Assembly (NCBI GenBank): GCA_030248295.1
Contig: JASANH010000770.1
Coordinates: forward strand, 868,001-932,000
Source of the DNA: Mesodorylaimus sp. YZB2_4
Lineage: Eukaryota > Nematoda > Enoplea > Dorylaimida > Dorylaimidae
Reading direction: 5' to 3'
Length of the DNA stretch: 64,000 bases
In this document: piece by piece, positions 3,423 to 56,299 of the stretch
Numbering within the stretch: position 1 is the stretch's first letter
Layout: each line of letters starts with the position of its first letter
Notes under the pieces: generated by a model
The model's input: the letters and a program-made list of their open reading frames with translations, nothing else
Told to the model about the DNA's origin: nothing
Databases searched by the model: none
Program-made: the position numbers and the translations under genes

Positions 3423-3549
3423 AGCTAGTCGAAGATGGCGAGAGGAGTATCTGTAACAAGGACCTTTGCTACCCCTTCTATGTGAGCAATTGAACGAGCC
3501 CGACACCTTTAATGGAGAAAACTTGCGCAGGTGCTAATTAAACCAATCA

Positions 3550-6872: not shown

Positions 6873-7390
6873 GATAGAACGCCAACTTTATACAACTCTA
6901 CTACTGTAGGAGTTTCATGTTCACCATAACCTGATTGTATGTACAGTAAGTATTGAAAAAAGTCGATACTTCGAGGAAAACTTACAATATAAACCATCTT
7001 CATCTTTTGCGAAAATATATATTGGCAAATATAGGGTAATAACATTACAGGAGAACCAAGAACGAACTCGAATATGATCGAAAAAGCAGCTAGCTCCATG
7101 CGGAAAGGTCAATCAGTTCTTTACAACCAGACGCTGCTAGACAGTTTTCTAGTGAAGCAAAGCAATGGCAAAAACTTTAAATTATGAACGTAAAAAATAT
7201 AAATACAACAAAATATCGGTGCTGCCTACCCAGGATGCTGGTAGCTCGTGTGACGACTTGGGTTTGAGCGCTCATACCTGGAGCTGGGCGTCACCATGGG
7301 GACACGATCCATTGGTGGTGAATACATATTTTACCTACTAGTCTACTGGAGTTTGACTTGCAGATTGACTCCGCTTTCCTTTTACTAGAT

Positions 7391-8384
7391 ATGGATAACA
7401 GCACGCTTATCACTGCTTCTACTTCGTCCATCGTGGCGGCGACGAAATTAGACATCATCGTTGGCACAGTGTACATCATTTGGGCCATCATCATTATCAA
7501 ATTGCACATCATCTGCTCGTATCTCATGCTCACTGACAAGGAAATGAAGAACCCCACGTACTACTTCATGATCAATATGAGCATAGCCGACTGTATCGAG
7601 TTGTTCACTGTCGGAATCTATGCTGGTATGGTCATCTTGACCAAATACCATAACGACCTACTTCACCGCTTCGCCGCGTTCGTCTGCATCTCTGCGTGGT
7701 ACACCACATGCATACTTTTTGTGCTCATCGCTTTTAGTCGATGGATAGCTCTGACGAAAACCCACATTGCGCAACATGTGTTTCGGTAGGTCGATGGTTT
7801 CATCCCGCCCATTTAATAATCTCACATAAGTTTTCCATTTCAGGAAGTCCGTTCTGTGGTCTCTGCAAGCAGGCTCGTGGTTGCTGATGGGCGTGATCTG
7901 CTTCTACGGCAATGTGCTGTATCCCCCTGGTCCCATGTTCCCCTTCTTGCCGGCCTTCTACACTTGGGATTTCGACACGAGTATCGAGCTAGGTAACTAT
8001 TTTTCGTGGATAAACTTGTTTTTCAACACGTTGTGCAGCGTGCTGGACGTTGGTTTTAATGTTTTATCTTTAATTTGGGTTCACCAAACACGCAAGCAAA
8101 TCATGAGCGTTGCAACAGCGGCAAATAGGCGCAGAGAAATCAAATTATTGGTGCAGTGCTTGATTATAAGCGGTGTGTTTACTTGTGCCCATATATTTTT
8201 CACCACCATGTTCGCTTTGAATTATTACACAGTCGCTGTTACCCTGTGCATTCAGACATTTTGGACCACGAATCATTCTGTGAACCCTATCGTCTATTTA
8301 GGAGTTAACAAAAAGTTAAGAAGACGGTTCTTACAAATCTTTTGCTCCTGTAAAACATCGAACAAGGTTTCTGTTCTTACTTGA
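7391..8384 (+). CDS. SRT-like seven-transmembrane chemoreceptor (gene B), 2 exons
   Basis: Exons 7391-7785 and 7844-8384 are joined by a 58-nt intron (CG|GTAGGT ... TTTCAG|G), giving 311 residues. The start is MDNSTLIT, a glycosylatable N-terminus parallel to MDNKT in gene D. TM2 carries NPTYYFMINMSIADCIEL, the end of TM3 has FSRWIALTKTH, the extracellular loop has YPPGPMFPFLPAFYTWDF, and TM7 has NHSVNPIVYLGVNKKLR, so the receptor looks complete. It is over 90% similar to gene D in exon 2 by eye and probably arose by tandem duplication. Likely a plasma-membrane chemoreceptor of sensory neurons (family inference). Ligand and G protein unknown. Confidence 0.9.
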
Positions 8385-8389
8385 GGGCA

Positions 8390-9880
8390 AAATTTAAACC
8401 CTGGCAACAGAGGAGGAAAGAGAGGTCTAAAAGATATTTCGGTTGTAAGGCTTGGCAAAAATTTACAGCATTGAGAGGATTGAGACGCATTGCTCATAGC
8501 ATCTTTTTAAGCTAGTATTTGATTGTAATGATTTTATCTGCGTTTACGGCACCTACCAATCTGTTTCGATGCTCTTTTATACTTCACCATTATTGCGCTT
8601 TATGCCTCACCATTATTGTATGGCGATGTGCCCACCTTTATTGTGTGCTTAACAAAGTTCAATGGTCGTTTCTTCATGCTATACTCCTTATCTAAAGAAA
8701 ATTGGCAATGTAAAAAATCTTTTTCTGAATTGCGCAAATGCATTAGTGTATTTGGTAGTGCGACCTTCTGCCGAGCAGCCTGGTAGCCATACTTTATCCT
8801 GTGGATGTGACCCCGAAAGTTTTTATCGGAACTGTCAGAAATCTACGTAACAGTGTTTTTACCAGCCATTAAATTACTCATGCAAGCGAACAAGCGATCT
8901 CTAATAAGATTTTATCGCCACAGACTGAGCGGCAGTTTTATTCTTCATCTTTTTTAGTTCACACAAGGGCGTTGCACCGGCTACTATCAAGCATAAAAGG
9001 AACATAAAAAGTCTAGACTGCTAAAAACTCTATTCAAATATTAAACACACAATGAAGAGCTAATGACTCTAATAAACTGTTCCTTGTGAAATCTCTCGAT
9101 TCTACTGAGAAATCTGATATTCTACACAGGCACTTTGTTAGTTTATTTCCCTTAAAATACAAGTGTAAATCAGTTGCTCACACACGACAGCCCTGCTAAA
9201 CAAATCTTTCATTGCTGCTCACAAAAAAGCTGCCCTGGTGGAATTTAATGAGGAGAAAGCTGCCGCCTTATTTCTGCCCTGATACTGCAGACGAACCGGA
9301 TAATTTCCATCAACTCCAGGTCTCAGTTGAGCATTTTCTATAATATAACATTTGCTTCGTGCGTCATTTGCATTCGCGCAGCTTAAATGAGGAGGCGTGC
9401 ATTCTCTCTAAAATACTTTTTTGTCCATTCTCCCTCTCCAGATCTGAGGTTCTCAGGTGGAACTAATTGGCAGAAAAAGTGATCCCACATCAGGCGAGGG
9501 ATCAATAAGATGCAGCTTCTTTTAGTAAAGTTTAAGTTTTCATTTGTTCGGTGTCTTATTTTGAATTCAAAGACTTGCTGCCTCCTAATAACCTCTTCTC
9601 CGGCATGACGCATGACGGGGGGGGGCGGAGGCAGAGCCAACTAAGGTCAGACTTTGCAATGAGTACATCCTGATGACCGTCTGCTGCATGTGAATTAGGA
9701 CTGGCCATTTTCTGATAGAGCCTTGTAAATAGTTCCATAATGAGTCTCTAGATCTCCGAATCTTCATTATAACGGTTATTCTCAACATCCCAGGGGCGGC
9801 TAGTGGGCCTAATGAACAAATGAGGAACACGGGTCGTCTCTTATTCGTCTTGGCACTTTTCACATTCGCAGCCGACACCT
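8390..9880. other. intergenic between receptors B and C
   Basis: No convincing exon. The minus-strand frames at 9.4-9.9 kb overlap one another in three frames and have no domain. A C/G-rich run (GGGGGGGCGG) lies near 9617. Confidence 0.5.
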
Positions 9881-9886
9881 TCTACA

Positions 9887-11826
9887 ATGTTCGATGTTGT
9901 AGGTTTGGACAACTTGACTGCTGTTGCACATTTCACTTATTCGACCCACCATACCATGGGACCATCCATGTCTGATATTATCATAGGCACTGTGTACATC
10001 GTATGGGCCACCATCATCATCACCTTGCATATAATCTGCTCTTGTCTAATACTCACTGACAAGGAAATGAAGAATCCTACCTACTTCTTCATGATCAATA
10101 TGAGCGTGGCCGACTGTATCGAATTGGTCACTGTGGGAATTTATGCCGGCCTGGTTATCTTGACCAAATACGAGAACGACATGCTGGCCCGATTTGCTGC
10201 ATTTATTTGTATCTCGGCGTGGTACGCCTGCAGCATTCTTTTCGTGTTGATAGCATTCAGTCGATGGGTAGCGTTGACAAAACCACACATTGCTAAAGAC
10301 GTATTCAGGTAAGGTTGATGCCTATTAATTAACGATCAGAGAATGTGCGGGAAGCATACCGCACGATGAGCGATTTGAGCAGAGCTTATGACGGTCGGGT
10401 CTACGCAAACTAACACCTCGGCATGCCTAAATTTACTTGCGGACTCTATAGTACCTACCTTCTCTGATTCAGCATCGGGTGTCATGTATTTTTCTTGAGA
10501 GGTTCGTCATCTTTTTTACGCCCCTTTTGCCCGCTCCCCAGACACCCGCTCTCCTTGCCACTGGTTTGCACCATGGTTCATATTCATGTTACCATATCAC
10601 TAGCGTGAGAGCAGGTATGCACACTTGAGGGTGAAAGGGCAAGTCAAGGTTTGAAGGGCGACTCCGAGTAGACTCTTCAGGAATGAGGCCATAAATTGAA
10701 ATTTTACAAATAGGGAAGGGGTAAAAGTGTCTTGTATGACTCTTCACTGAATTAACCTTCTGCATCTTTGTGGAATCGTAAGATAAGCGTGGATCAGTAC
10801 CTCAACACCTATCAGTGCACTGGCTCAGGAAGCCGGTCCACTTTTCCCAAGTCAGATCCAGCACGAGACTAGAACGAGATCAAGGTCAGTGTCCAGTTTG
10901 GTTTGCAGGAATCGGTAAAAGACCCTGCTCGCTCCGCAAGAGCTTCGGGCTTGGGTCCGTCATAGCTTCTTTGACGGCCGACATGTGAGCTACTCCCTGA
11001 CTCTACTGTACATGGCCTTTGTGGTGCGGGCAGGTGACGCTCATTACGAAGTGTCCCTGGACTGCGTACGGTTTGAACCATCCTCTGGTCAGCCCTAGTC
11101 TGTCCTCGGGCGAGCCAAGGATTTCACATGATAGAAAAATTCCGAGCCCCCATATATCCATACAGTAAGGCTTCGGTCTTGCTTCCAAGCTGGAACAATT
11201 CAAATTAGTTCCGGATCAATGTATGTATAACAGACTTTCCTTGACTCTGGGTTAATTAATAACGCTAACCTCAATGTTTTAGAAAACCCGTTCTTCGATC
11301 CCTGCAAGCAGGTTCGTGGTTTCTGATGGGCGTGATCTGCTTCTACGGCAATGTTCTGTATCCCCCTGGTCCCATGTTCCCCTTCTTGCCGGCCTTCTAC
11401 ACTTGGGATTTCGACACGAGTATCGAACTAGGTAACTATTTTTCGTGGATAAACCTGTTTTTCAACACTTTGTGCAGCGTGCTGGGCATGGGCTTCAATG
11501 TTTTATCTTTGATTTGGGTTCATCAAACCCGGAAGCAGGTCATTAGCCTTGCAACAGCGGCAAATCGGCGTAGAGAAATCAAATTATTGGTTCAGTGTTT
11601 CATTATTAGCTGTGTTTTTACATCTGCCCACATTTTTTTCACCACCATGTTCGCTTTAAATTATTACACAGTCTCTGTTACTTTGTGCATTTAGGCCTTC
11701 TGGACTATCAACCATTCTGTAAACCCCATGGTCTATTTGGGGGTGAATAGAAAGCTAAGACGGCGGTTTTTTGGTGTTTTATGTTTGTGTAAGAAACCAA
11801 ACCATATTGCTGTAATGACTAGGTAG
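9887..11826 (+). pseudogene. SRT-like chemoreceptor (gene C) with premature stop
   Basis: Exon 1 is 9887-10308 and exon 2 starts at 11283 after TTTTAG, with the same split arginine codon as its paralogues. The 974-nt intron is much longer than in gene B. All receptor marks are present up to TVSVTLCI. There TAG (11692-11694) replaces the CAG found in genes B and D, just before TM7. The same frame stays open after the stop to a natural end at 11824-11826, reading AFWTINHSVNPMVYLGVN and a basic tail. The damage is thus a single C-to-T substitution. It is either a young pseudogene, a natural null allele, or a readthrough gene. A truncated product would lack TM7. Confidence 0.88.
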
Positions 11827-14283: not shown

Positions 14284-15106
14284 GTCTAGTCGCGCAGCGC
14301 GTTGTCGCATCGCAAGTATTCGTGGCAGTGTCCATCCTGGAAAAGTGCGTTCGCGAACTCCCCGCCCGACAAGTCACGCAAGAGATTGGACTGCGCATAA
14401 CTGGACGGCCTCACACCCTCATCTCTTGATATAAGCAATGGACCCACTGAACCCACTGGTGACATAAGGGCGCATATGCAATATTTTATCTGCTCCAGCT
14501 ATAATTAAGCGCGTATAAAATGAAGAAATACGTCCTCTCTCCAAATAAATGTTGACTCTTTTAATTTCTCAGAAAATTCCAACTCCTTGACCGTGTAACG
14601 ATGGGCAGGTTGGTGGGCGAAAGTTTTGGAATATGGCCATCACCAATTTGCCACAATCGTCTTCCAAGAACAATTTCATTATTTCAGTAACTTATCAGCC
14701 AACTGCTCAAAAACGACCATGTTCGTTTCTTTTCTTTCCTTTGTTCAATTGCCCTTAACGAGTTACACTGATCATGCTTCCCACCGTCGCATCGGACGGA
14801 CACATACAGCCACCTAACACAGCCGCCGGGACACATCGGAATGATACCGCCTGTCAGCACGGTTACGATCTACACTTTCTTCGAGGCAGTTATAAGACAA
14901 ATGATCCGCGAGGAACGGGCGAAACAACCGTCTTACGTGAGGCAACTTCCTGCTTACCTCAGAGATACCAGGTAAATACAGGTTTTTAATGTCGGCCTAA
15001 GTTATTATCCCACGCTTCATGTGCTCACAGACGCACTTAAAATGACCGGTACTAGCCACTCACCATCACTTCGATCGTGTTAGGCCCTCTCTCAAAGGCG
15101 GTCCGA

Positions 15107-15472
15107 ATGAAATCCTTGTTCATCATTCTCGTGGTTCCATTCATCGTCGCATGCGCCCATATTGCGCCCGAGGAAGTGGCGCAGGGCAGACAACGCCGCA
15201 ATGCTGGCGACGACGCGGCGTGGCTGACCCTGTTGCTGCACAAGGTCCAAGACAGCCACCTGACTCCATTGGAGCAAAAACAAGTGGATCGAGCACGGGC
15301 CAAAGCCATGCTCCAAGCGTCGATCGACAGTCGGAACCGCGGTAAGCAGACGGCCATCGGCTACTTGCAGCCCTTGTTCGTCACCAACGAAATCATGCGC
15401 CACCAGCAAGCTCAAAATCGTTGGCAGAAACAGGTGATGAAAAACAGAGCTTTGTTGGAACACTTGGGGTAA
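15107..15472 (+). CDS. small secreted protein of unknown function, duplicate 1
   Basis: The frame encodes 121 residues from MKSLFIILVV. A hydrophobic leader ends near VACAH, so the protein is probably secreted. The mature part is helical in character, rich in Gln, Arg and Ala, with no cysteine beyond the leader. It contains basic spots QGRQRR and SRNRGK. The copy at 18852 has an almost identical mature part (about 7 differences) but a clearly different leader. The final glycine codon overlaps GGG|GTAAGC, a strong splice donor present in both copies. The stop may therefore lie in an intron and the protein may continue into the conserved open stretches downstream. I recognise no family. A signal-bearing upstream Met (MLGPL, 15077) is less likely because it pushes the leader inward. 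Confidence 0.65.
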   Translation: MKSLFIILVVPFIVACAHIAPEEVAQGRQRRNAGDDAAWLTLLLHKVQDSHLTPLEQKQVDRARAKAMLQASIDSRNRGKQTAIGYLQPLFVTNEIMRHQQAQNRWQKQVMKNRALLEHLG

Positions 15473-16499: not shown

Positions 16500-18850
16500 A
16501 AGTCTTTAGTGTTTAGGCCAGTGTTCACTTAGTCATTAGTGTCATTGACATACTGTCACCAGTCCCCTGAGCACCTAAACACGCTTCGCTACGGATGAAG
16601 TACTGTACCGTGTAGTGGAACAGCCGTATGACCTCGTGGAGGAGCTAGCTTCGAACCGTGCGCCTTGGAGAGTCGAAGATTATGTACAGGAAAGATGATT
16701 CTAAAAGAAATCGGACGAGTAAACGTGCCTGCCGAGCCCTCGACGCGGCCATCGACGTTATACAGCCAACACTGGTCAAACATCCTGTTTGGAATATCAT
16801 AGGTTCAATTACGTACTGTATGCAGAAAAACCACTGTCCATTTTATCTCGAACAACATCGACATAGGAATCTTCTCGACGGTTCTCTGGCCTACGATTAG
16901 GCACTCAGGCTTTCTCCGACGGGGCGGTGCCCATCCTGCCGTTGGGGCCATCAGTAATCCACGACTCCATGTCTATAGATGCGTCGCAAAGCAAGCCGTT
17001 GCCATCAGAATCGGTTGACTGCGTGGACCGCTCAGCGTTACGCGTCCGCGAGACTGCGTTTGAACACATCTTTCACTGAGACTGGGATCTCGATTCGGCA
17101 GAGGTTTCCATGAAAAGCCGCGCAAAACGCTTGCAGAGCTACAAAATCCCAGGAAAGTTCCGTCTGATCGTGAATATGGCATTCGAGATATCTACTGTTG
17201 AGCGAGGAGTCAGTTTTCGAGTTGGCTTTTTGAAATGCCACAACATCCAACACGCAGTTTTTATGGCTAGAGCAGTGGCGAAATGGCAGTGATATGAGTA
17301 TCCTGGTGCCAAAGGGGATCAATCGGAGTGTGAGCCAGTATTACCTGACCCTGCACCACTTATTTTTCTCTGCTGAATAAATGCTCAAAAATAGATTAGT
17401 CGTTCGAACACTGGCAACGGTGGGAAAACAGAAAGGCCAACATCAAAAATTTTTGTGACCAAGGATGACATTTTTGATCACTGATCACGGAAAAAAAGAT
17501 TTAGACATGTAGTTTGCATATCGTAGGTCCACCTTTGGGTTTGAATGTTTGATTTGGTTATGTCTTACATACATACAGTACTGACGATAAGCATGACCTG
17601 CCGCCTGGCAGGTAGCCTAAATGTTCCTGATGTATTTAAAGCTCATTATCCGAATATGTAATAGGTGCGGTACATTTTCTGGTTTTGAGGGAGTAAAAGT
17701 GAGGACACACTCGCTGTGTGGACCAGTGAAAGACAGGTGCTTTGAGGGTGACTTTGCATCTGTCCCGTATCCTGTTCAGCGCACTCGTCCTAATCACTAA
17801 GGCATTCGTTTGTCAAGTCGCCCTCATTTGAGGACCACGATCTCAATTTCGTTTCCTTTGGTTCGTCTCGCAGCCGTAAATCATGTGGCACAGCTCGGAA
17901 TATATCTTTCATAGACTCATAAGGATCTGTCACGTGCGAGGCATAAGGCATAGCCGCACATGACTGAGACAAAATATAGGCATATCATAACATACGCTAA
18001 GGAATACTGTGGGCGACTCCCTATGAACCAACTCCGCACCAGTCTATCCGCAGCTCGAATGATTGCTTGAAAGGAGCGGGAAAAACAACGATGAGTACAC
18101 CGGCTACACTTCGACGGATGATTAAAAGGTTAGAGCTGCCGTCAGTGCGCGGATTGTAGAACATCTTCCGGGTATCCTTCCACGTAGCCATGGGTGTATA
18201 TTTCAACTTTGGGTATAATACTGTAACATCACGGATCTTGACGGAGTGCAATTCCTAGCCATTCCAATGACTTAAGGGGCAAAGTGGAGAGATATCCATA
18301 GAGTAGAACTAGAAAACTAAACTGACATGGTGTGCATTTCTTCAGTCGTTACTGATTGGGCAGAGTTTCTGTGATCTATAAAATGGTCATCGATAAATCG
18401 AGCTGTTCACATAAAAGCGCTTTCCAGGGTTGGAAAATTTATATAAAGAGACTTTCTACAGTAAGTAGCGTAGGCCCCCCAAGTTTCGCGAATATGTCGA
18501 ACATGGCTGCTAACGATTACCAGCAATCAGTTTTCTTCAAGAAAATTTACAATACAGTAAGTTTTTTGTATTACTCGCTCGTATTCCATGATAAAAAAAC
18601 CCGTAGAAAAAGCGCTTCTTTGGAAGCAGGCACAAGTCAAATGATCTGTCGCGATCGGAAACTCATGTCTCCTGGCGGCATCCTGCTTGCGTCAGGCAGC
18701 TTCCGGTATCGCACGTGTGGCTGCTTTGAAAGTTCCTTGTCGGGTAATTATCCCACTTTCCTTCTGCCCACTCACACTGCTTAAAAGGCCTCAGATGCGA
18801 GCGAACGCGATCAGTTCGTGGTTGATTCGGTTTCCCCAAAGTCGGTCAAA
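16500..18850. other. spacer between duplicated units
   Basis: No clear gene. A plus frame at 18356-18784 (142 codons) has no signal, no domain and lies directly upstream of the second unit. It overlaps the frame that reads into the secreted protein. GTCAAACATCCTGTTTGGAAT at about 16777 recurs in similar form near 20466 and 21605, so scattered short copies of one sequence occur on both sides of the units. Confidence 0.45.
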
Positions 18851-18851
18851 A

Positions 18852-19220
18852 ATGAAATCTTTCTTCTTCGTTTTCATCATTCCATTATTCATCGTCGCAT
18901 GCGCCCATACTGCGCCCGAGGTAATGGCGCAGGGCAGACAACGCCGCAATGCTGGCGACGACGCGGCCCGGCTGACCCTGCTGCTGCACAAGATCCAAGA
19001 CAGCCAGCTGACTCCATTGGAGCAAAAACAAGTGGATCGAGCACGGGCCAAAGCCATGCTGCAAGCATCAATCGACAGTCGAAACCGCGGTAAGCAGACG
19101 GCCATCGGCTACTTGCAGCCCTTGTTCGTCACCAACGAAATCATGCGCCACCAGCAAGCTCAAAATCGTTGGCAGAAACAGGTGATGAAAAACAGAGCTT
19201 TGTTGGAACAGCTGGGGTAA
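18852..19220 (+). CDS. small secreted protein of unknown function, duplicate 2
   Basis: 122 residues from MKSFFFVFII; the leader ends near VACAH. The mature part is the twin of the protein at 15107 (for example ARAKAMLQASIDSRNRGK and QLTPLEQKQVDRA). The leader differs at many positions while the mature part is nearly unchanged, which suggests selection on the secreted product. As in the first copy, the apparent stop is embedded in GG|GTAAGA, a likely splice donor. An upstream in-frame Met extension to 18687 is not conserved in the other unit and was rejected as the start. Confidence 0.65.
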   Translation: MKSFFFVFIIPLFIVACAHTAPEVMAQGRQRRNAGDDAARLTLLLHKIQDSQLTPLEQKQVDRARAKAMLQASIDSRNRGKQTAIGYLQPLFVTNEIMRHQQAQNRWQKQVMKNRALLEQLG

Positions 19221-23194: not shown

Positions 23195-24130
23195 TATCTA
23201 GATTTGGTCAGAATGCTGTCTGAAAAAATCAAGTTGATTTTGTTTTCTTCCCATTTTCATGCACATAATGCAAATATAAGAAACTGAAATAAATAATCCG
23301 ATTTGTTCAACGTAAGCTTTGCGTCAATTACCTCACTTACTTCAATATGACCCCCGTCACTCCACCAGGCTCCTCACACACGGGTCTAGTATAACACGTT
23401 TTTGAGCATTTTAGGATCGCGTACCAAACGTTGACCCATGTAGTGCGGTCACAATGCCGTAACATACGCTTATTCATAAAAGAAATGCAAAAGATGGTTA
23501 CATCAAGGACTTGGCTCTCTCACGATCAGTAATGTAGGTTATTTCCGCAAAAATATGAATGAGGGTCAGTTTTGTAGGACAAAAAGAGTCAAGAGTAAAT
23601 TAAAGCATAATTTCAGGCATTTTGATTTATCAGTTTATGAACTCACAATCAGTGGCATGGGAGTCACGGAAATAAAAAAAATTTTATAACGTTACTGGAA
23701 TGAACTGTATACGAAATCTTAATCTTTATAATCTGAGCCAGTTGCGGCCACATATTTGGTCTTTCAGACAAATGCAAATTTGTTCTCAAATTTAAAAAAA
23801 ACCTAGCTCACATAATAATACATTTCTACTTTCAAAAATGTAACATTTCAATTTGCTTCTACGTAAATAAGATTACAGGCGCGCCCTTGTTAATTGCTCA
23901 GCTAATGATTAGGGCCGAACTGATGAAATATAAAATCAAAAAAGGTATTGTGTGGGCTTCTTCTTCTTTCGCATCAGAGGCACCGACGGACATCTAATCG
24001 ATGACCCTAACAATAAATGAATAGACAGTAAAGATACGAAAGGCAGATGTTTCGCCGCTTTCTCATTTTTCTTTGCAACGTATCCCCTGTCATTTTGCGA
24101 TCATACCGTCCCGCTGTCGCATTTCTAGCT
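23195..24130. other. A/T-rich intergenic upstream of receptor D
   Basis: A/T-rich with no open frame of note. It presumably holds the promoter of the receptor at 24137, but I see no definite motif. Confidence 0.5.
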
Positions 24131-24136
24131 GTACAA

Positions 24137-25470
24137 ATGGACAATAAAACAGTCGGCGATCTGTCCAGCTTTTCCGTGTCGGCAACACCATCCATGACGG
24201 ATACCATTGTGGGCTCAGTGTACATCACCTGGGCAACAATTATCATTGGCTTACATATTATTTGTTCATATCTAATGTGCACCGACGAGGAAATGAAGAG
24301 CCCCACGTACTATTTCATGATCAATATGAGCGTGGCCGACTGCATCGAGTTGGCCGCAGTGGGAATTTATGCCGGCCTGGTTATCTTGACCAAATTCGAG
24401 AACGACATGCTGGCCCGATTTGCTGCATTTATTTGTATCTCGGCGTGGTACACCACCTGTGTACTTTTCGTGCTGATAGCATTCAGCCGGTGGATAGCTT
24501 TGACAAAACCACATATTGCGGACCATGTATTTAGGTGAGTTTGAAAATTGGTTGTGTGAGGCCATTCACAACTCTTGAGTCCCATCTCAAAAAGTATAAC
24601 CTGCGGTCGGGCCAGATAGAAATGATACTGCCCTTCACTCACACCTCATCTCTCCCTATACCTCGGGGTAAAACTGATACGTTAAATTAGGTTGACTGTG
24701 TTTTTTGCTACCACCAAAACTTCCTTTCATGTGGGTCTATGTACATATCAGCAAAAATAATAATAGATACTTCAGCACTAAACCGCCAGGAACATTCGAA
24801 ATCCTGCAAGTCCCTCATTCAGAGCCCCAGCTCGGCCCCCTTTGCGGTCTCTTGGGCGACGTTGCATTAGGCACCAAGGATCTCTCCTTTTGCTGGTGCC
24901 AAATGGAGTATGTTCTGTTTTAGGAAACCTGTTCTGTGGTCCTTGCAAGCAGGCTCGTGGTTGCTGATGGGCGTAATCTGCTTCTACGGCGATGTGCTGT
25001 ATCCCCCTGGTCCCATGTTCCCCTTCTTGCCGGCCTTCTACACTTGGGATTTCGACACGAATATTAAACTAGGTAACTATTTTTCGTGGATAAACTTGTT
25101 TTTCAACACGTTGTGCAGCGTGCTGGACGTTGGTTTTAATGTTTTATCTTTGATTTGGGTTCACCAAACACGCAAGCAAATCATGAGTGTTGCAACAGCG
25201 GCAAATAGGCGCAGAGAAATCAAATTATTGGTGCAGTGCTTGATTATAAGCGGTGTGTTCACGTGTGCACATATCTTTTTCACCACCATGTCTGCTTTGA
25301 ATTATTACACAGTCGCTGTTACTCTGTGCATTCAGACATTTTGGACCACGAATCATTCTGTGAACCCTATCGTCTATTTAGGAGTAAGCACTAGGCTGAG
25401 AAAAAGATTTATGAAAATTTTTTTATCTTGCAAGAAATCAAATCGTGTGTCTGCAGCGGCTGATAATTAG
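24137..25470 (+). CDS. SRT-like seven-transmembrane chemoreceptor (gene D), 2 exons
   Basis: Exons 24137-24534 and 24924-25470 (TTTAG|GTGAGT ... TTTTAG|G) give 314 residues with the family's split arginine codon. The start is MDNKTVGD. An upstream in-frame Met at 24047 adds a non-conserved stretch and was rejected. TM2, the FSRWIALTKPH motif, the YPPGPMFPFLPAFYTWDF loop and NHSVNPIVYLGVSTRLR are intact. Exon 1 is closest to gene C and exon 2 closest to gene B. This mosaic pattern could reflect gene conversion or unequal exchange between array members. Likely a functional sensory receptor; ligand unknown. Confidence 0.9.
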
Positions 25471-31287: not shown

Positions 31288-31398
31288 GACATCGTGGCCG
31301 AGCGGTCTAAGGCGCCAGACTCAAGCGAGAAGCTTGTGCTTAGCACTGAGTGTTCTGGTCTGTGTATACAGGCGTGGGTTCGAATCCCATCGACGTCA
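31288..31398 (+). tRNA. tRNA-Leu(CAA) with 27-nt intron
   Basis: The acceptor stem GACATCG/CGACGTC has one A-C mismatch. D arm GGCC-GAGCGGTCTAAGGC, anticodon stem CCAGA/TCTGG and a T arm GTGGG/CCCAT with loop TTCGAAT follow. The anticodon loop CTCAAG gives CAA. A 27-nt intron (31326-31352) follows position 37, and tRNA-Leu(CAA) is a tRNA that commonly has an intron in animals. A long variable arm is present, as expected for leucine. Confidence 0.9.
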
Positions 31399-31679: not shown

Positions 31680-33225
31680 CACAAGATTCCCTGACTCGAC
31701 TTGACCTAGCGCCGTGTAGCCGTCTGCCGTGTTTCCTCGGGTTAAGTCACAGGTGGTTTATTCAAGCACGGCTTAGGTGGGCTTATTCGAGAGGGCATTG
31801 CCAAACATCATCAGTTTGCTCAACACACTGACTTGTACTGTAGACCTGATGTTGGTATACTGTAAGCGCAGAATATCACCTGATGAGAGCTTATCGAGTG
31901 CGCAAAACACTGTTTGGCTCCTATATAAGTCACATCTTTTGATCTCCGAAGCGGCAGTCACCCACCAATCACTTAGCTGTCAAACATTTTTACCCCATAA
32001 CTGTTGGAGTCGTAGAATATTCTCACCTTGCTTGTTATTCTATACTGATTCAATGCTAGTTGGTTCCTACTCGGTTTGCATTCCTCTTTGACACGTTCTT
32101 GGAAGCAAAGAGTTGAAATGAATGAATTTATAGTCTGTTTTCTAAGTTTCAAAATGTGAAAACTTGCGAAGAATGCCTAAGTAGAGAAGTGAACTCGGTT
32201 TCGAATTTCTTCAACGGTTAAGACTTCTAAACTTTTTCTTTGGCTTGAAGCTAGCGAACTTTTTATGGAAAGCGAATGGAGTAATTTTCTAGGAATGCTG
32301 AAGTGCTGGAATGCAGATGCAAAGTGCGGAAAAGGCTCTCGCTGGAAAAAGAAAAAAGACGCGTATTTTTGGCGCTGAGATACCAATATCTGTCTACTGG
32401 GTAGTTGGAAATGATACAGTACGACTGATTTCTTGTCCCAAAGAGAACCAGAATTTTTGCATCCTCTGTCAACTATCACAAGCAAGTGCCAACTTAATCG
32501 AGAGTGCATTCTTAAAAAAAAGTCAACTTCCGCAGTGCGCATTCCCACTGTTTAAAGATTTTTTTCGATACCCAATTCCGTTCTTGCGAAAAAGAAACCA
32601 GGAAAAAGCCAATCTCCAACACCTTGGCGTTTGTTTCTCAAAATCAGATTACCTCATCGATCCTTCGCCAGTCAGAGCGGAAGCAAGGATGGAGGAAAAA
32701 GAAGTTATTAGCGTGGGTTGGTTACGTGCATGGCTTGTACTGCCAATGCTTTCCACGCCGTCGACGCTGAGAGAGGCTAGCGTTCCACTTTTCTTTTAGC
32801 CACTGTGCGTTTTTCTAATTGTTAGAACAGTTGAATCGAGTCATCAAAAATCATCGAGCTGCCACGCGGACTTTGGAGTGCGCCTCGGCTTCTTTTCCTT
32901 TCTTCAAACACAAAAGATGCTTTGCACTTTGACGAGATCGACAAGCAAGCCTGGCTGCCATCTCTAACTGACTGAGTACGCGTCCATATTTTATGCACTG
33001 CCTGAGGATGAGTTCTTTGAACGACTAGCCTGCCATTAGTCGTCCGAGTATCGACGAGCGGTCCCAGCCCCCTTTTTGGCCCCCACCAGCAGACGAACCT
33101 CCGAAGTTCCTAATTGCCAGCGCGATTATCTTGTTATTCCCAAACATGCCTCCTGCCATCGGGTCGTGATCTTTGATTATCTTGATCAAACTGATCACAA
33201 AGCCGATTTTCATCACAAGAACGCA
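31680..33225. other. intergenic, upstream of the channel gene
   Basis: A plus frame of 162 codons at 32311-32799 has no domain or signal and is overlapped by other open frames. I treat it as chance. The promoter of the channel gene should lie at the right end; no motif is certain. Confidence 0.4.
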
Positions 33226-33232
33226 GATCAAA

Positions 33233-36200
33233 ATGCAACCATCTATTATTGATCGGTTATCAATAAGCTCAATCATCTTTATGGTCACATTAGTCATTCT
33301 CACTTACGCCGATCGATCAGCATTAAGTCGTCGAGTGACATATCAAGGTCGACAGCCCATATCCAACTGCACACCGGCGCAAATGCAGCAGCTCGGCACA
33401 AAAGTATTAAAAGAAATTTTAGCCAAATATGACAATAACTTAGTTCCATCGCCTCACGGGGTCGATGTGGAAGTTGAACTAATCATACAGAGTATATCCG
33501 AAATTTCTGAAATTTCTTACAGTTTCAAATCGGATTTATTATTCAGTCAAATTTGGCACGATCCGGGTCTTCGATTTGATCACATTACTACTTGTTTGAT
33601 CAACTTGACATTGAGTTTTAGAATGATCGAAAAATTGTGGCTTCCAAATGTATGCTTTGTGAACAGTAAGAAAACTGACATTCATTCATCGCCCACTCCA
33701 AATATATTTTTATTAATATTTCCCAATGGTACAGTTTGGACAAACTATCGAGTTGTGGTACAAGCGCCATGCAAAATGAACTTTACTGTATTCCCGATGG
33801 ATGTGGTTCATTGCGAATTGATATTTGAAAGTTATTCCTTTAATGCAGGCAAAGTAAGCTGGCAGATTTCCTAGCAGTTTCTTTCGCATGCCATTATATT
33901 GTCAATTTTTGAAGAACAGGTGCTCAAACGAGTTAGTTACAACTTGTTCTTCTTTCAGCTACTACTCTCAGATTTCGTGTATCTTAGAAGCATAGGTTTT
34001 TTTCTAAGCGTAAGGTGTCTGTCAGTCTTTGAAGTTAGAAATCCTGAAATACGCGAATGTGAGCTTGAAGGCCTCGACAGCTTATGTTACCAACAGAATG
34101 GATGGTATTATAGGCTTCCTTTTCTGTCAATGACCAGCTTTTGCGAGACGCTATCAGATTTCTCAGTCGTCCCAAGAAACACGCCGGTTTCAGGCAATTT
34201 AAATTTCAAAATATTCTCGCACCATTCATAGAAACATAGATTTTGGTCCTTTTGTGCTGGTAGTTCAGAAGAATTCAGTCTCTTAATTAACCAGGCATAG
34301 AAAAGAATAAATTGAAGGCTTGAAGATTGGAAAAGAGCTTTTCTGAGAAGTTTTATTATAATTGTTTGTGCGAAACGGAGAAGGAAGCTGCACACTTGAA
34401 AGAAGATGATGGTGGAGCCTCGGAAAATTACAGGAACATAAAATTGGAAGGATGCCATTATATAAAATAAAGGCAGTGGACGTCATGCAATTGTAACCGT
34501 GCCCCAGCTAACGTTAATAACGTGAGGTCTCTACTAGACCGTCGGTTACTACAGTACTCATAAGGCCACCAGGGCCACCAAGGCATAAAAGAATGTAGGG
34601 CAACCTTGTTATCTCTATCTTATTTACAGCGGCCCGTAAAATTAGTGATTTGTCGTTAAAATCGTAAAATCTGATACCTGAAGCCCCTTTCACTGAAAAT
34701 TGGTGCAAATTTCTATTAAGGATAGCTAAATGGTTGAAATCTGGGCTCAAATCTCTGAGCGCACACAACCACGCTCGATGAACTAAAGCGCATAAATGAA
34801 CCCACGCGTTACGGTAACCACAAATACTCAGCCGTCCCAGGGGAAATGATTGATCCAAATGGGTCTGATGGTTGGAAAACTGTTTGAGAGGGGAAGCAGC
34901 GGAATTTCAAACGCATTTTGGTCTAACTGTAAGCTCTACATAGAAAATAAATTTTCTATTCCCAAAATCGACGTGGACCGCCTCAAAAACCCTCTTTTTA
35001 TGAACCGTCATGACTCACTGTCTGCTGCACTTTGCTGGTGTCGCGGAGGACTCCAAATGTCCTACGATCCCCACGGGAACTATTTGAAGAGGATACTGAT
35101 AAACAATATTTGCTCATCCGGGGCACACAACCAACGGAGGGCGGCTAAAATGAGCTTTCTGTGGCCTTCGTATTGGGAGGGGAGACATCCTAGTGAAGAA
35201 GTTTCGTTTGGGCTTGTCAGAACGTTGGAGCCTGCTGCTACATACCTACGCTGCATGTAGACAATATGGCAGAAAGATCATACATTGAGTTTTTTGATTT
35301 CATCTTGGAAAACTCTACTAAAAAGGCACAAATTTAACAATTGCCGCATGGTTTTTGACATTGCAGGTCCGCCTACTGTGGAAACGTGAAGATCCAGTAA
35401 TACTGTACGAGCCTCCGGAGCTACCTGATTTTCATCTAGATAAATATAACTGGACTAAAAACTCGTTCGAATACCCAGCTGGTCTATGGGATCAATTGAA
35501 AGTCGAATTTATATTTCGAAGATCGTACGGATTTTATGTTTTACAAATTTATTTGCCGACCTATTGCATGGTAAGTCGCAAGTGAAAAAAAAGATGGCAG
35601 TTAAAAACAGAAATCATTGATTACGATTTCAGGTATTTATTAGCTGGCTCGGTTTCTGGCTGGACCACCGAGCATTGCCAGCCCGAGTGACTTTGGGTGT
35701 GAGTTCCATGATGGCCTTGGTCCTTCAATACAGTAACGTGGCCAGAAATCTACCCAAGGTCAGCTACGTCAAAGGCTTGGACATTTACATGTTCTGCTGC
35801 ATCGCTTGCATATTCCTAACCCTAATCGAATTGGCCGTTGCCGGATATTTGGAACGAAGAAATTCGAAAAAGAGTATAGCGGAAAGGAAAAAGAAAACGA
35901 CCGAAACTCAGCAAGAACCAAAATTACCTCAACCGAAGTTAAACTTGAGGTCATTGAAACCGTCTCGTCTCACCATGCGGCCGACATCGATAAAATTCGA
36001 TCCTACCCATGAAGACACCAATAACACGGCCATATGGTTGAAAGAAACAGTCATTGCGGGCACAGACATTTGTAATGGTTCCTCCACAGTAGCTAATTCT
36101 GACCAGCCAAGACCTAAACTGAATTTAGCAAAAGCGCGTCTACGTGGACTGGCCGCTGGTGGCGATCAAGCTGCAGTTATGGAAAGAAAAAGGGCTCTAC

Positions 36201-36628
36201 GTGCTTTATTAAACAAAGATCAAGATCCATCGCCGATACTTCGACCAGGTTCGCCGCCCACCGAAACTAAAATCCCGAGGCCAGGTGGAATGGCTCGCAG
36301 CGGAAATGCTGACATTGGAAAACGTTCTAGCGTCACTTTTCAAAATCCGGATGAGGCTATTACTCTTTGTCCTAAGCCCCAAGATGTTTCGGATACGTCA
36401 CCATCATTTCGACTCGGAGGTATCGGTGGGTTGAGAAATAGAAGAACCGCTCTGAGATCATACTTTATGGAAAAGAAATTTGACGATGACGATGCGGCTG
36501 GTGAGGGAAAATCGCGTTGGAAAGGCGACGACGTCGACCAGTTTTGTCAGAAATTATTTCCGGGCGTTTTCATTATTCTAAATGTGGCTTATTGGTGGTA
36601 TTACACGGACGTTGCTTCAAGGGAGTAA
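33233..36628 (+). CDS. anion-type Cys-loop ligand-gated ion channel subunit, 3 exons
   Basis: Exons 33233-33853, 35367-35570 and 35633-36628 are all in phase 0 (AAA|GTAAGC, ATG|GTAAGT; acceptors TTGCAG and TTTCAG), giving 606 residues. A signal peptide covers about 1-27. The extracellular domain has DLLFSQIWHD and the Cys loop C180-x13-C194 (FPMDVVHC). M1 spans about 260-285. PAR at 291-293, just before M2, is the signature of chloride-selective channels. M2-M3 read SSMMALVLQYSNVARNLP and KVSYVKGLDIYM. This style resembles nematode amine-gated channels (MOD-1/LGC-55 group; inference). The second disulphide of glycine and glutamate channels is missing. The M3-M4 loop is very long (about 230 residues, basic and proline-rich), and M4 ends the protein. 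It likely acts as an inhibitory synaptic receptor; the agonist is unknown. Confidence 0.9.
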
Positions 36629-51306: not shown

Positions 51307-51338
51307 TTTATTGAAACGACGAGAAACACATTTTTATT
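51307..51338 (-). terminator. two poly(A) signals for the nitrite reductase gene
   Basis: Minus-strand AATAAA occurs at 51338-51333 and 51312-51307, about 150 nt past the stop of the gene ending at 51484. This suggests a normal eukaryotic 3' end for the transferred-looking gene. Confidence 0.55.
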
Positions 51339-51483: not shown

Positions 51484-52689
51484 CTAAAATGCGAGCCAGA
51501 AAATAAGAACAGTACAAAGAACAGACTTTGATGAAGCAGCTAGAGCAGAGTCCCCCGACCTCGGTGTGTTAGTGAAATAGCTGGTGATGAGGCTGGCATT
51601 CCCTTCCTCCACCCCACCATCACTTTTTTGCTTGGCTACTTCTCCCTTCATAATCATGTTCACATACTGTTTATCCGATTCTGTTCCGCAGGTGACATTC
51701 TGGCCCACTTTTGTTGGGCAGAACACGTCCAATCGTTCTTCCCCGTCCACCTTCAACAGTCCCGCGGCTCCCTTGAGAATCCTGAACAGGCTGTGGTCGA
51801 CGAGGGTGTACGTTCCAGGGACTAGGGCTCTGAACTCGACCACTGTCGACCCAGCGGATGGTACCAACGTAGTTTGGACAGCCCTGGCGGGTGGGCTGAT
51901 CAGGTCGCCTTCTCGATAGACTTGGTCGAATATGATGCCGATAATGTGAAATGACGCCGCCAAGTTGGGGCCGGCATTGCCGAAGAAGATGCGGACACGT
52001 TCGTTGGTCTTGGCCGTCAGGGGGGAAGTGACCAGTGAGTCGGCCCTGCCATTGAAGACGATGTGCGATGGTCGTTCGTCCAGGCCGTCCTCGTAAGCGG
52101 GTTTCAGCAGAGTGCTGTCGTCGCCTTTGGTGTAGAACTCGCTGCGTAGAACGTAATATTCTCGGTCAACCGTTGGCAGCCCTTCTGCAGGCTCGACCAG
52201 GATCAGGCCGTACAGCCCGTTGGCCAAGTGGTGAGGGGCGGGAGACACAGCGCAGTGGTAGATGAACAGGCCAGGGGAGAGCAGCTGGAACGAGGCAACC
52301 ACAGTTTCGCCAGGTTCCGCTTTCAGAACTCCGGCACCTCCTCCAGGGCCACTGACAGCGTGGAAATCGATGGTGTGGGCCACACGAGCATCATCGGCGT
52401 TGGTCAAGATGACTTCCAGACGATCCCCTGCTCTGGTCCGGATGATGGGACCGGGCACGTGATTGTCGTAGGTCCAAAATTCTAAGTCGTGGCTTGCATT
52501 GAGTTTAGCTTTGACAATGGTCGAGTTGATGCGCAGGCGAAGATGGGCCGGGTATGTGCGACTGATCGGTGGGGGCACGTTGGGAGCGTATGCTTTCGGT
52601 GCGTCGAAAATGGGTACTTCGCCGCATGGTGCCATCGATATGGCGAGATGCAAGGTGAAGATAAAAATGAAACAGGAGAGGAGCAGCAT
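51484..52689 (-). CDS. nirK-like: copper-containing nitrite reductase (NirK/AniA type), secreted, intronless
   Basis: 401 residues in one exon. NirK reduces nitrite to nitric oxide; members are trimers with two cupredoxin domains. A signal peptide covers about 1-18. FDAPKAYAPNVPPPI and VPGPIIRTRAGD open domain 1. Copper residues align: type 1 His105, Cys146, His154; type 2 His110, His145, His299; catalytic Asp108 and His248. The axial type 1 ligand, Met in known NirK, is Leu159 (HLANGL). Domain 2 has FFGNAGPNLAASFHIIG and LVDHSLFRILKGA. Four N-glycosylation sites and a hydrophobic tail (388-401) after small residues suggest a GPI-anchored surface protein. The gene is visibly richer in G and C than its flanks and lies between animal genes. 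Horizontal transfer followed by eukaryotic tailoring is likely. With Leu159 the enzyme may have a high-potential, laccase-like type 1 site, so an oxidase role is possible. Confidence 0.93.
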   Translation of the reverse strand: MLLLSCFIFIFTLHLAISMAPCGEVPIFDAPKAYAPNVPPPISRTYPAHLRLRINSTIVKAKLNASHDLEFWTYDNHVPGPIIRTRAGDRLEVILTNADDARVAHTIDFHAVSGPGGGAGVLKAEPGETVVASFQLLSPGLFIYHCAVSPAPHHLANGLYGLILVEPAEGLPTVDREYYVLRSEFYTKGDDSTLLKPAYEDGLDERPSHIVFNGRADSLVTSPLTAKTNERVRIFFGNAGPNLAASFHIIGIIFDQVYREGDLISPPARAVQTTLVPSAGSTVVEFRALVPGTYTLVDHSLFRILKGAAGLLKVDGEERLDVFCPTKVGQNVTCGTESDKQYVNMIMKGEVAKQKSDGGVEEGNASLITSYFTNTPRSGDSALAASSKSVLCTVLIFWLAF

Positions 52690-52699
52690 GGTGATCTAA

Positions 52700-55235
52700 A
52701 AATATGTCAAACGTGCGAAAACTTTATGCTTGCGCTATCCATGAACACTTGTGACTGACCGTACTATCTAATCGTCCAGACCGTCCTTCATATTATTTTT
52801 GTGCCCATTATTACATTATTATGTGCTTTCTCTAAGCAGGCTGGCGAAGGACAGTCGGTGTCTGCTCAATCTACGAGGACATACCTCATTATAATCTCTT
52901 CAAACGCACCTAACGAGGCGTGTCATGACAATTCACCTATGGGCTCTGCGACACATTCGCATTCGCTGGTTTCCAGGAGTTTATTTCCTTATTGCAATCG
53001 ATTATAGGCAAAGCAATCGAGTTAACTGAAGGAGACGGGGAAATTGTGAGAAACATATTGAGCAGATTTAACAAAATGAAATTGTACTCTTGGAAACATC
53101 CTGAACATTTTATACACGTACAGTCAATGCAGATATGTATTAGATGCCGTTGCCACGAAACATACCTATGATGTATGCTTTGGCAAAGTTCAGAGCTTAT
53201 GATTTTATACAGCGGACATTATTGCTGGGCACATTATACCGTGGATGGCTTCTATGACACACCCGCTACATAAAAACGGTATGTACTAATCATCCCTTTG
53301 CTGTGGGAAGGCCGCGAGGTTGGGGAAAACATTCAACAGTATAGAAGAGGGAAAGAACACAAAAATCGCTGTGGTTTCGACTTTTATAAGCAAATGACAA
53401 AAACATCTTGAATTCGGAGCAGCATCAAGAAGTATGGCAGAGTGAGTTGCCCTGCCCGTACAGCTTCACCAACCGCTCTGAGCGCAGCAGAACAGATACG
53501 AAATCGAGACTCGCATGAAAACAAGATAGAGACGCAGCTTGTCGTTGGATAAAGAAGAATAGAAAACGGAAAATAATGTGCAGGTCGAAGCCGTAACAGA
53601 AAGAGGCCAATGAGTGAAAGTGGATAAATAGAGGGGAGCCTGAGAAAAGTAGGAGAGATACCACATGTGAGCAGCAGCGCAGCGTAAAGAAAAGAAATCG
53701 AAAGGAAAAGCTGGGAAAAAGTGGCTTGTGCAAAAATTTGGTCTGACCTTTCCCATAGTTGCTTGCGCGGTCGTTTACTTGCAATAATAATAGGGCTGCC
53801 TATTATTATAAGCATGTGGAAATTATCAATAACTTAGAATGTTTCCGAGTATTTCCCGCCCTCAGTTGTCATAGTTCCCAAACGAGTTTGACCGAGGACA
53901 GCGGTAATGAACACACTCGTATTTCTGAGAAGTCTGTTATCAGACAGTAAAAAGGTTAGCCCAGCCACCGTACTCTGAGCAAATGCAAGGCGAGACTAGG
54001 GTTGGCTGGGCTCCCTCGGCGACGCTTGAGCGGGTTATAGCACCGATGTCGGGTGGGACCATTTTAATCTTATTTTCCGTCATTCCCCCCTTCAACCCAC
54101 AATTTTTTATTTGACCAATGCCCGGGTCTCAAACCCTTCATATCATCACCGGCCTAAACGATCACGTGACCACGTAAAAGCGTGTTCCTTTTTTCCCGGC
54201 CTTTCTTGGGCAAGTGGATCTGAGAAAGGCATAATGGACTCACTATAACTGTCACTTCGTAGTGGCTATGGTGGTGGTAAAGTGAGCGACCCCCAGACTC
54301 GCATGTCACCCCTCCCTTGTCCACAGTACAGTTCACAGTACAGTGGTGTGGACAAAATTGCCCTGCCCGTACACGGTATGCCCTAATCATCCCTCAAAGT
54401 GTTCACAAAGTTTAATTTTCTTTTCTGGACTCATGGCAGCTAGTGCATCGTGAAAAAAAGCGCTGTTCACGCATATACAACCTCAGAATTTCACGGCCAG
54501 ACGGGATGGGGGTTTGTTGGATCGGATTGGATCAGATAATGCGACATATGTAATTGTAATTTTCCTTGACCATTCACAAACGCACCGCAATTTTTCAAAA
54601 AACCGCTCCCTATCATAAATCCCCACGCCCCCCCCCCCCCCAAGCTTACAGGCCCACAGTAAAATACAAAGTGTACACAAAACTGTTCATTTTTCTCTGA
54701 GCGTGAGCCACGTAGTGTTTTCAGCAAAATTAAATTTAAAATTGATGCACTCTTCGTGGCAGCGGGCTATATAATTGTATGATATTCCGTCATTTCCGGG
54801 TCTCTGGCTATGTTAAATTTAGCCTCAATATCGAGGTCAAACGGGGGTGAGCCAAGACCGCTGGAGCACTTCCTCTAATCAGACATTTCACTGTGCAGCT
54901 GCCAACGCCTCAGGTTATTCTGTTGGGGGCGAGGGCGAGGGCGTCAATTTCCAGCCCTAAGTAAATTAAATCTATTAAATACATGAGCATGTGACTCCGT
55001 GGGGTCAGTCAATACATGCTCCTCGAGTGAGGCAATATCGGTTATCAATCTTCGCTGGATTCTTCTGGACATTCGAAAGTCTATTACGCATCGCTTCGAT
55101 GACAGAGCCGGTTGCTACCAGCAATAGACGCACGGGTCCAGCAGTCTGCGACTAAAATTTTCTCCCGCTATCAGCAGTTGCGCACTTTACAATGGACGCA
55201 CTTCTTTACATCAACGTTTTATGAAGATAAGCTAT
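52700..55235. other. intergenic between nitrite reductase and receptor
   Basis: 2.5 kb without a supported gene. Three overlapping minus frames at 53384-53815 are open because of pyrimidine-rich composition, not coding. A run of about 14 C lies near 54627. It presumably holds both promoters. Confidence 0.5.
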
Positions 55236-55240
55236 ATGCA

Positions 55241-56299
55241 ATGTCATCGAACAATAATCTGAATAATTCAATCGATTCCGTGATCGCGTTATCGATCAAA
55301 ATCTTAGACGCTCAAAAAAGAGCAAACATTTTGTGGGTCACTTTGGGAGTGCTCGGTATAATTGCTGGCCTTTGTCAAATTATCACCACCTTGTACTGGA
55401 AACCGTTGAGAAAAGCTGAGCAAAGCATCATAACCGCCGTGGCGATTGGTGATTTGTTGAAAAATCTTGGATTTGGTGCAGTCGGAGTTCGAAGATTGTA
55501 CGCGACTACCACGGGTGGTCACGATGTTAGCTCGCAAAGTAATTGCATGATTTGGATCTTCTTCATGGTGGCCCCTCTATACTCTGTTTTTGCCCTGATG
55601 ATAACGCTAAGTGCTGATCGTCTTTTCGGGTTGTGTTTCCCAGTTCGGTACAGAAATCAAAATGTTCGTTTCAAATCAATTTTGATTGGACTGAGCATTT
55701 TTGTGGGAACTGTGTTCTCGAGCGGAATGTTCGTCGGAGTGAGTGAGACCCCAGTTGCTGTGTGTGCGTTCGGCTCGTCCCCTTTGCCCTCGTACAGAAC
55801 TGCTGCGCAATGGTTCGAGGACGGACTGATTTGTCTTACTTTATGTTTGAATCTGTGCAGTTGCGCAGTTTTATTTGTGAAATGGAGACGCGCAATTCAA
55901 TTGAAAAAGGATATGAAAACTTTCAAAAAGAATGTCCAATTAAGTGCTATGAAAATGTTGATGATTGTGGCCACATTTTTTCTGGTCAGCTCAACCGCTG
56001 GCGGATTGTGGTTCACGATCGTTGACTCGACCGGATGGGATCAGGCGACTAAAACGAGCTGGATGCCTTTCGCAGGCTGTTTCGAGCTGCTAAGAGCTGT
56101 CCTTGATTTTCCGGTGTATGTTTTGATGGTCAAGGAATACCGAAATGGGTTTTTTGCTGTGATTGGGCTAATTTCGAATACAATTTTTAAATCTCGATCT
56201 ATGAAGGCTAAAACAGCCGATCCCGCAGCGTCCTCTCCTGCTGCTGGTGGAGCGGAAGTCGCAACTGGCAGATATGCTGTTGCAGTTGGCCACATTTAA
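55241..56299 (+). CDS. SRSX-like seven-transmembrane receptor, intronless
   Basis: 352 residues from MSSNNNLN; the upstream Met at 55112 adds a non-membrane lead and is less likely. Seven hydrophobic spans are visible. Marks are AIGDLLKNLGFGAVG in TM2, Cys102 at the top of TM3 with Cys175 in the second extracellular loop, SADRLFGLCFPVRYR (a DRY-like DRL with PxxYR), a long basic third loop (RAIQLKKDMKTFKKN) and DFPVYVLMVKEYRNGF in place of NPxxY. It resembles nematode SRSX-type rhodopsin-like chemoreceptors (inference). A single-exon structure contrasts with the two-exon SRT-like genes and could reflect retroposition. The tail is Ala/Ser-rich. Ligand unknown. Confidence 0.82.
   Translation: MSSNNNLNNSIDSVIALSIKILDAQKRANILWVTLGVLGIIAGLCQIITTLYWKPLRKAEQSIITAVAIGDLLKNLGFGAVGVRRLYATTTGGHDVSSQSNCMIWIFFMVAPLYSVFALMITLSADRLFGLCFPVRYRNQNVRFKSILIGLSIFVGTVFSSGMFVGVSETPVAVCAFGSSPLPSYRTAAQWFEDGLICLTLCLNLCSCAVLFVKWRRAIQLKKDMKTFKKNVQLSAMKMLMIVATFFLVSSTAGGLWFTIVDSTGWDQATKTSWMPFAGCFELLRAVLDFPVYVLMVKEYRNGFFAVIGLISNTIFKSRSMKAKTADPAASSPAAGGAEVATGRYAVAVGHI

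Follow-up and report, generated by a model that had tools for sequence, protein, structure and literature searches.

Does a nematode carry a copper nitrite reductase (NirK), an enzyme known chiefly from microbes, of its own, and would such a protein make nitric oxide (NO) from nitrite? The question is raised by a 64,000-nucleotide stretch of DNA, referred to here as the window, in which a preliminary description had reported an intronless NirK gene among genes of animal type, and had proposed horizontal transfer and possible enzymatic NO production by the animal, perhaps when oxygen is low. The window corresponds to C10:868001-932000 of a 145-Mb assembly of 1067 contigs, which was searched as a whole.

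Gene and Family Assignment

The reported single exon of 401 codons spanning both cupredoxin domains was recovered as described; its strand, which had not been given, is minus (Table 1). In the search of the own genome the copy was found at C10:919487-920689 with a 100% match. Residues 17-323 of the protein align with AniA (1kbv) over both cupredoxin domains (E 2.6e-94), and Pfam returned matches to Cu-oxidase_2 and Cu-oxidase_3. The AlphaFold monomer model has a mean pLDDT of 82.3, with residues 347-401 below 50 and a helix at residues 2-17. When this model was submitted to Foldseek, the top match was AniA (5ue6; E 4.3e-44, 47% identity, TM-score 0.94 by target length). The AniA alignment, Pfam, AlphaFold and Foldseek all reveal a pair of cupredoxin domains arranged as in NirK.

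The comparison with NirK profiles suggested in the preliminary description gave a match to TIGR02376 (Cu_nitrite_red) of 284.6 bits (E 1.1e-84), though the curated equivalog cut-off of 296.3 was not reached. The three paralogues described below score 286.5, 285.0 and 269.3, so that all four copies lie under this cut-off. Among five other members of their tree cluster P0009 passes it (302.2), and P0122, P0004, P0002 and P0127 are below. A laccase or ascorbate oxidase identity was ruled out, the corresponding models giving 26.2 and 27.1 bits, far short of the thresholds they require (558.9 and 614.8). The trinuclear copper site of these oxidases is unexpected in a two-domain protein. Because the axial Met of the type 1 copper site is replaced by Leu, the window copy is, as far as its sequence tells, a NirK-like variant rather than a standard NirK. 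That the gene is real is almost certain.

The coding region is intronless as described; just upstream of the ATG, however, lies a TTTTAG that resembles a splice acceptor. In the paralogues L002, L003 and L004 a TTTCAG takes this place, ending 6, 9 and 20 nt ahead of the start codon, respectively. A motif of this kind lies wholly inside the 25 nt upstream of 120 of the 2339 ATGs in the window; three of the four copies satisfy this definition and the fourth motif begins one base further out, a frequency that gives no formal probability because the copies are related. The position of the motif suggests that the mRNA may be trans-spliced or may have an intron in its 5′-UTR. Poly(A)-signal-like hexamers follow three of the four copies (AATAAA at the window copy and L003, AATGAA at L002) and none was found at L004.

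Table 1. Positions of the NirK-like gene, its sites and signals, its neighbours and its paralogues (window positions, except where contig C10 is named)
Feature	Position	Strand	Detail
NirK-like coding sequence, single exon	51484..52689	-	401 codons and stop; ATG start, zero internal stops
Splice-acceptor-like motif TTTTAG	52696..52701	-	ends 6 nt before ATG
Two AATAAA poly(A)-signal-like hexamers	51307..51338	-	146 and 172 nt after stop
Signal-peptide-like leader, about residues 1-18	52636..52689	-	hydropathy 2.8 over 12 residues from residue 2
Two-cupredoxin core, residues 30-322	51724..52602	-	AlphaFold ten-residue block means 82-98 for residues 31-320
H105 (type 1 ligand), D108 (catalytic Asp), H110 (type 2 ligand)	52360..52377	-	each in 218/218 rows
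H145 (type 2 ligand)-C146 (type 1 ligand), electron bridge	52252..52257	-	H145 217/218, C146 218/218 rows
H154, type 1 copper ligand	52228..52230	-	218/218 rows
Leu159 replacing type 1 axial Met	52213..52215	-	Met in 213/214 rows outside own genome
H248, catalytic His	51946..51948	-	218/218 rows
H299, type 2 ligand	51793..51795	-	218/218 rows
GPI-signal-like tail: hydrophobic run, residues 390-401, after Ser/Gly/Ala-rich stretch	51487..51522	-	last-12 hydropathy 2.72
Neighbour, Srsx-type chemoreceptor GPCR frame	55103..56296	+	PF10320 E 4.4e-12; nearest matched frame, starts 2.4 kb off
Neighbour, Cys-loop ligand-gated ion channel on separate frames	33170..36625	+	PF02931 E 4.4e-37 (33170-33871), PF02932 E 8.9e-24 (35621-36625)
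Paralogue L002	C10:791951-793156	-	86% identical to window copy
Paralogue of L003/L004 pair	C10:1104902-1105909	-	71% identical to window copy
Paralogue of L003/L004 pair	C10:1108620-1109765	-	82% identical to window copy

Four Copies on One Contig

The observation is larger than first stated, as three further copies are present on the same contig. All four are free of stops and on the minus strand, and they occupy three places on 1.3 Mb, with less than 3 kb between L003 and L004. A mitochondrial-type NirK was not found elsewhere in the genome, where the Aphelenchoides protein as query retrieved the same four places only. For the core (residues 30-322), dN/dS values of 0.259, 0.129 and 0.109 were obtained for window-L002, window-L003 and L002-L003, respectively; the values against L004 are 0.09, 0.072 and 0.048, with dS of 1.8-3.2, which is near or past saturation and too high to be trusted. 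Purifying selection on the core is indicated. Leaders and tails diverge more than the core does. The three close copies resemble one another more in the second half of the core than in the first, which could reflect gene conversion.

The claim that the flanking genes are of animal type was supported by Pfam, as five of ten window frames matched chemoreceptor GPCR (Srx, Srt, Srsx) or ligand-gated ion channel domains, the ion channel ending ~15 kb from the NirK-like gene. At 5-6 kb from the L003/L004 pair there is one frame with a HORMA match (E 2.5e-22) and one with a gelsolin-repeat match (E 3.4e-05). These are two of the six frames searched with Pfam beside the other copies; the three by L002 and one more by the pair gave no match.

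Other features of the window were also recorded. Look-alike chemoreceptor GPCR frames are clustered at 2020-3533(-), 7322-8381(+), 9824-11691(+) and 24032-25467(+), two of them matched by Pfam as Srx/Srt and the rest assigned by eye. Two small frames with secretion-like starts, 15056-15469(+) and 18645-19217(+), closely resemble each other, the second being without a Pfam match. Four Rfam tRNA matches, at 1095-1207(-), 2758-2870(+), 5310-5422(-) and 31288-31398(+), exceed the length of a plain tRNA (111-113 bases) and are thus probably intron-bearing; ARAGORN in its bacterial setting found zero tRNAs in the window.

The identity of the animal was approached through COX1, read from a nuclear contig with the invertebrate mitochondrial code. 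It is 78% identical to Longidorus and to Xiphinema rivesi, 77% to Paralongidorus and 74% to Xiphinema pachtaicum; the other named matches listed are arthropods (59-63%), and unnamed sequences reach 82%. Longidorus, Xiphinema and Paralongidorus belong to Dorylaimida, and these matches place the animal as a nematode near that order. At 1468-4201 of locus L085 (C73:253283-256016), COX1 and then an ND4-like frame (by eye) are open under the same code within a 488-kb contig. COX1 matches with stops elsewhere in the genome suggest nuclear copies of mitochondrial DNA.

Composition would fit contamination or an assembly chimera: the GC3 of the gene, 0.63, is slightly over the range of seven sampled window frames (0.37-0.62), and its GC is also above that of the sampled neighbours. 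Against this stand four divergent intact copies in three places of a 1.3-Mb contig, the nematode chemoreceptor, HORMA and gelsolin-repeat frames nearby, the splice-acceptor motifs, the secretory features described below and the poly(A)-like signals at three copies. Moreover, the closest bacterial locus among the best 80 GTDB loci kept is 57% identical. The contaminant hypothesis was rejected on the shared contig, the animal context, the splice-acceptor motifs and this bacterial distance, and we give it next to no weight. A chimera is very unlikely; the gene is taken as a nuclear nematode gene.

Leader and Tail

A strongly hydrophobic leader was found by hydropathy in all four copies, though the leader sequences differ. 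Three core N-X-S/T sequons are present in each copy, and three or more in only 8 of the 214 other rows of the alignment described below. The hydropathy of the last 12 residues is 2.72 for the window copy, 1.87 for L002 and 2.65 for L003; that of L004 is -0.16, and none of 139 other proteins exceeds 1.5. L004 could have a tail that is hidden behind an intron. Judged from these features, the products very probably follow the secretory route, and a GPI anchor is the probable fate of three of them. The product looks secreted, and in three copies membrane-tethered, a destination that the preliminary description had not proposed.

Copper and Catalytic Sites

The sites were compared in an alignment of 218 rows, comprising 140 proteins, the three paralogues and 75 of the 80 bacterial loci, in which some genes are present twice from two sources. 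The roles of the sites were assigned from the family literature, and H248 and H299 presumably correspond to His255 and His306 in classical CuNiR numbering. The earlier statement that the type 2 copper and catalytic residues are all in place was confirmed: the type 2 ligands H110, H145 and H299 are kept in all four copies, as are D108, H248 and I250, the counterparts of the catalytic Asp98, His255 and Ile257.

The His-Cys-His-Met set of the type 1 site is broken in the window copy, L002 and L003, in which position 159 is Leu; L004 keeps Met. The same Leu occurs in one bacterial row, a NirK-like frame of Desulfobacteraceae UBA2156 (L015). As for NO from nitrite, the residues for nitrite reduction are present but the axial Met is gone in three of the four copies, including that of the window, so ordinary nitrite turnover is not to be assumed. 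A Leu-to-Met exchange in a laccase brought the type 1 potential down by 140 mV (PMC4220974), from which a raised type 1 potential is expected in the Leu copies. Such a potential would be expected to make electron transfer to the type 2 copper less favourable.

The main rival to NO formation follows this direction. According to it, the Leu copies are neofunctionalised, and the high potential of their type 1 copper would turn them toward oxidising NO to nitrite, or else an external substrate; they would serve to remove NO or to oxidise some compound at the cell surface, and only L004 would make NO. The laccase precedent for a potential shift fits this possibility, and so do two further observations: the copies with axial Leu are exactly those with the tail, in a family where Met is otherwise so rarely replaced (Table 1), and Q182, which is Gln in 214 of 214 rows from elsewhere, is replaced by Arg in each of the four copies. 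However, the type 2 and catalytic residues are retained throughout, and the laccase and ascorbate oxidase models match only weakly. We regard such a shift as possible but doubtful.

A second alternative is that of a non-catalytic copper-binding surface protein, in which fold and ligands were kept for stability or copper handling. It could draw on changes at two otherwise near-invariant positions, N106 (T or D in the copies) and G229 (N or D). The retention of D108 and H248 in all four copies and the purifying selection on the core make this explanation improbable. For NO formation by the window copy itself, we find the case for and against evenly balanced.

Relatives and Origin

Two homologue searches were performed, each with the best 120 listed of 7999 candidates scored; most are unnamed sequences. 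The named homologues among the matches listed include those from Naegleria lovaniensis, Aphelenchoides avenae (AAVH_16102), Ditylenchus destructor, the alga Edaphochlamys and eukprot transcripts, and proteins from Omnitrophica MAGs (53-55%) are also among them. In a tree of 66 rows the four copies form one clade (100/100) inside a 24-row cluster (100/98), which is made up of these copies, thirteen unnamed sequences and the full set of seven rows from eukaryotes; the 25 GTDB bacterial loci all fall outside it. The phylogeny called for earlier places the gene among eukaryotic NirKs. By this placement, the gene is most readily described as being of eukaryotic NirK type.

Within the cluster the sister of the four-copy clade is the unnamed P0002, a weak placement (88/53), and in the best tree Aphelenchoides, Ditylenchus and the unnamed P0125 group with Naegleria (96/92). 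A single clade of all nematode rows including P0125 was not rejected (p-AU 0.344); one leaving out P0125 was rejected (p-AU 0.003), because P0125 nests within the Aphelenchoides/Ditylenchus group. The remaining 20 rows of the cluster (13 unnamed), taken as one clade that excludes the four copies, were not rejected either (p-AU 0.339), so the copies may be sister to the rest of the cluster rather than inside it.

These results bear on the proposed horizontal transfer in two ways. The clustering suggests that the source, if there was a transfer, was perhaps another eukaryote; but a single nematode origin is compatible with the topology test, which makes transfer one of two candidate origins. The other would be shared descent, with NirK inherited vertically from early eukaryotes, lost in most animals and turned into a secretory form in the dorylaimid line, without any transfer into nematodes. 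It concerns the origin and not the function, and is compatible with the functional readings. A cluster that gathers all the eukaryotic rows and no bacterial one agrees with it, as does the p-AU value for one nematode clade. Nevertheless, in the best tree Aphelenchoides and Ditylenchus lie with Naegleria, apart from the dorylaimid group, whose neighbour is an unnamed sequence. To our knowledge, NirK is broadly absent from other animals, which also counts against vertical inheritance. We consider shared descent unlikely.

The preliminary description was not aware of any animal NirK, a view that needs correction, since sequences of Aphelenchoides avenae and Ditylenchus destructor are already in the databases. 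Animal homologues are on record and only apparently undescribed: among the open-access papers listed in searches for animal or nematode nitrite reductases, none was seen to describe an animal NirK, which is weak evidence of absence. A NirK survey covered bacterial, archaeal, fungal, plant and protozoan genomes, and its main text contains neither of the word stems nematod- and metazoa- (PMC10999283). A review lists CuNiRs as bacterial and names other proteins for animals (PMC12117333).

NO Synthase Search and Possible NO Sensing

The NO synthase (NOS) oxygenase domain PF02898 gave zero matches in the genome, in a search that takes no account of introns and whose controls included no animal NOS. 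In 14 control genomes the domain was matched in Bacillus subtilis and Deinobacterium chartae. The same method finds HNOBA (17 matches) and H-NOX (6 matches in five places). Four of these H-NOX places (L097-L100) are on contigs C188, C117, C5 and C5 and the fifth is on C3. The C188 and C117 frames carry Tyr at a position that is aliphatic in sGC beta-1; the two C5 frames have Leu and Val at the distal heme position, with sGC beta-1 as best match. A distal Tyr marks O2-binding H-NOX, and an aliphatic residue marks the NO-selective type. The frames suggest that both O2-type and NO-type guanylate cyclases may exist in one nematode. In C. elegans, NO synthase genes are reported to be lacking, and the worm hence to be unable to make NO (PMC6066330). 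A candidate NO source together with a plausible NO receptor in a worm without a detected NOS is suggestive.

Proposed Function

The reading to which we lean, if only slightly, is that of an extracellular, partly GPI-tethered NirK-like family that would make NO from nitrite. The protein would enter the secretory pathway and fold as a copper-loaded trimer, and in three copies a GPI anchor would fix it to the outside of the plasma membrane. There the type 1 copper would take up an electron from a reductant outside the cell and pass it through Cys146 and His145 to the type 2 site, where nitrite would be reduced to NO beside D108 and H248. The NO might then act locally, via guanylate cyclases of the worm or on surface microbes. 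L004, tail-less and with Met, would act in soluble form and more like an ordinary NirK. In such a scheme the secretory leader would have taken the place of the mitochondrial-looking leader of other eukaryotic NirKs. The axial Leu, the TIGR02376 scores of all four copies, the Q182R change and a GC3 just above the sampled range count against this preferred reading.

A wider and more tentative account includes the origin: an animal lineage without NOS would have acquired NirK from another eukaryote, rerouted it from the mitochondrion to the secretory pathway, tethered three copies by GPI and retuned them from Met to Leu, so as to make NO, or control it both ways, from environmental nitrite. If true, it would mean an enzyme-based NO system in an animal that is independent of NO synthase. 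If the family is active, a dedicated extracellular nitrite-to-NO enzyme would exist in an animal without a detected NO synthase, and an animal step would be added to nitrogen turnover. Moreover, Met and Leu paralogues in one genome constitute a natural experiment on how the axial ligand governs both the direction and the speed of nitrite chemistry.

Comparison with Known Systems

AniA of Neisseria (1kbv, 5ue6) shares the fold and the type 2 and catalytic residues with the window protein. It works at the cell surface. However, AniA is a bacterial outer-membrane protein with axial Met, whereas the window protein has a secretory-like leader, a GPI-like tail and Leu.

The eukaryotic NirKs of Naegleria, Edaphochlamys and the eukprot transcripts share the tree cluster with the four copies, and this cluster resembles, by the taxa listed in the survey, its Clade 1g and neighbours (PMC10999283). 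The cluster members retain the axial Met and have no hydrophobic tail, in contrast to the Leu and tail of three copies. Unlike the four copies, the members whose starts were read by eye (P0004, P0009 and P0122), the Naegleria, Aphelenchoides and Ditylenchus proteins being described in this way, have basic N-termini of mitochondrial look, and P0004, P0009 and P0122 have a CPxC-type C-terminus. The two nematode proteins among these, P0009 of Aphelenchoides avenae and P0122 of Ditylenchus destructor, align with 73-75% of the window protein, at identities of 57% and 54%. They are without a secretory-type leader or hydrophobic tail and keep Met; their place in the tree is with Naegleria, with a single clade together with the copies not rejected.

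The replacement of axial Met by Leu has been made in the laboratory in M148L CuNiR of Ralstonia pickettii (8qgf) and in M150L/F312C of Alcaligenes faecalis (3h56), both available as crystal structures, while in the three paralogues it is natural. A natural departure from axial Met is also found in TsNirK, which has Gln as type 1 ligand (PMC6400189). TsNirK is a three-domain, three-copper enzyme and the window protein a two-domain one with Leu; still, this natural variant suggests that axial Met is not absolute for a NirK.
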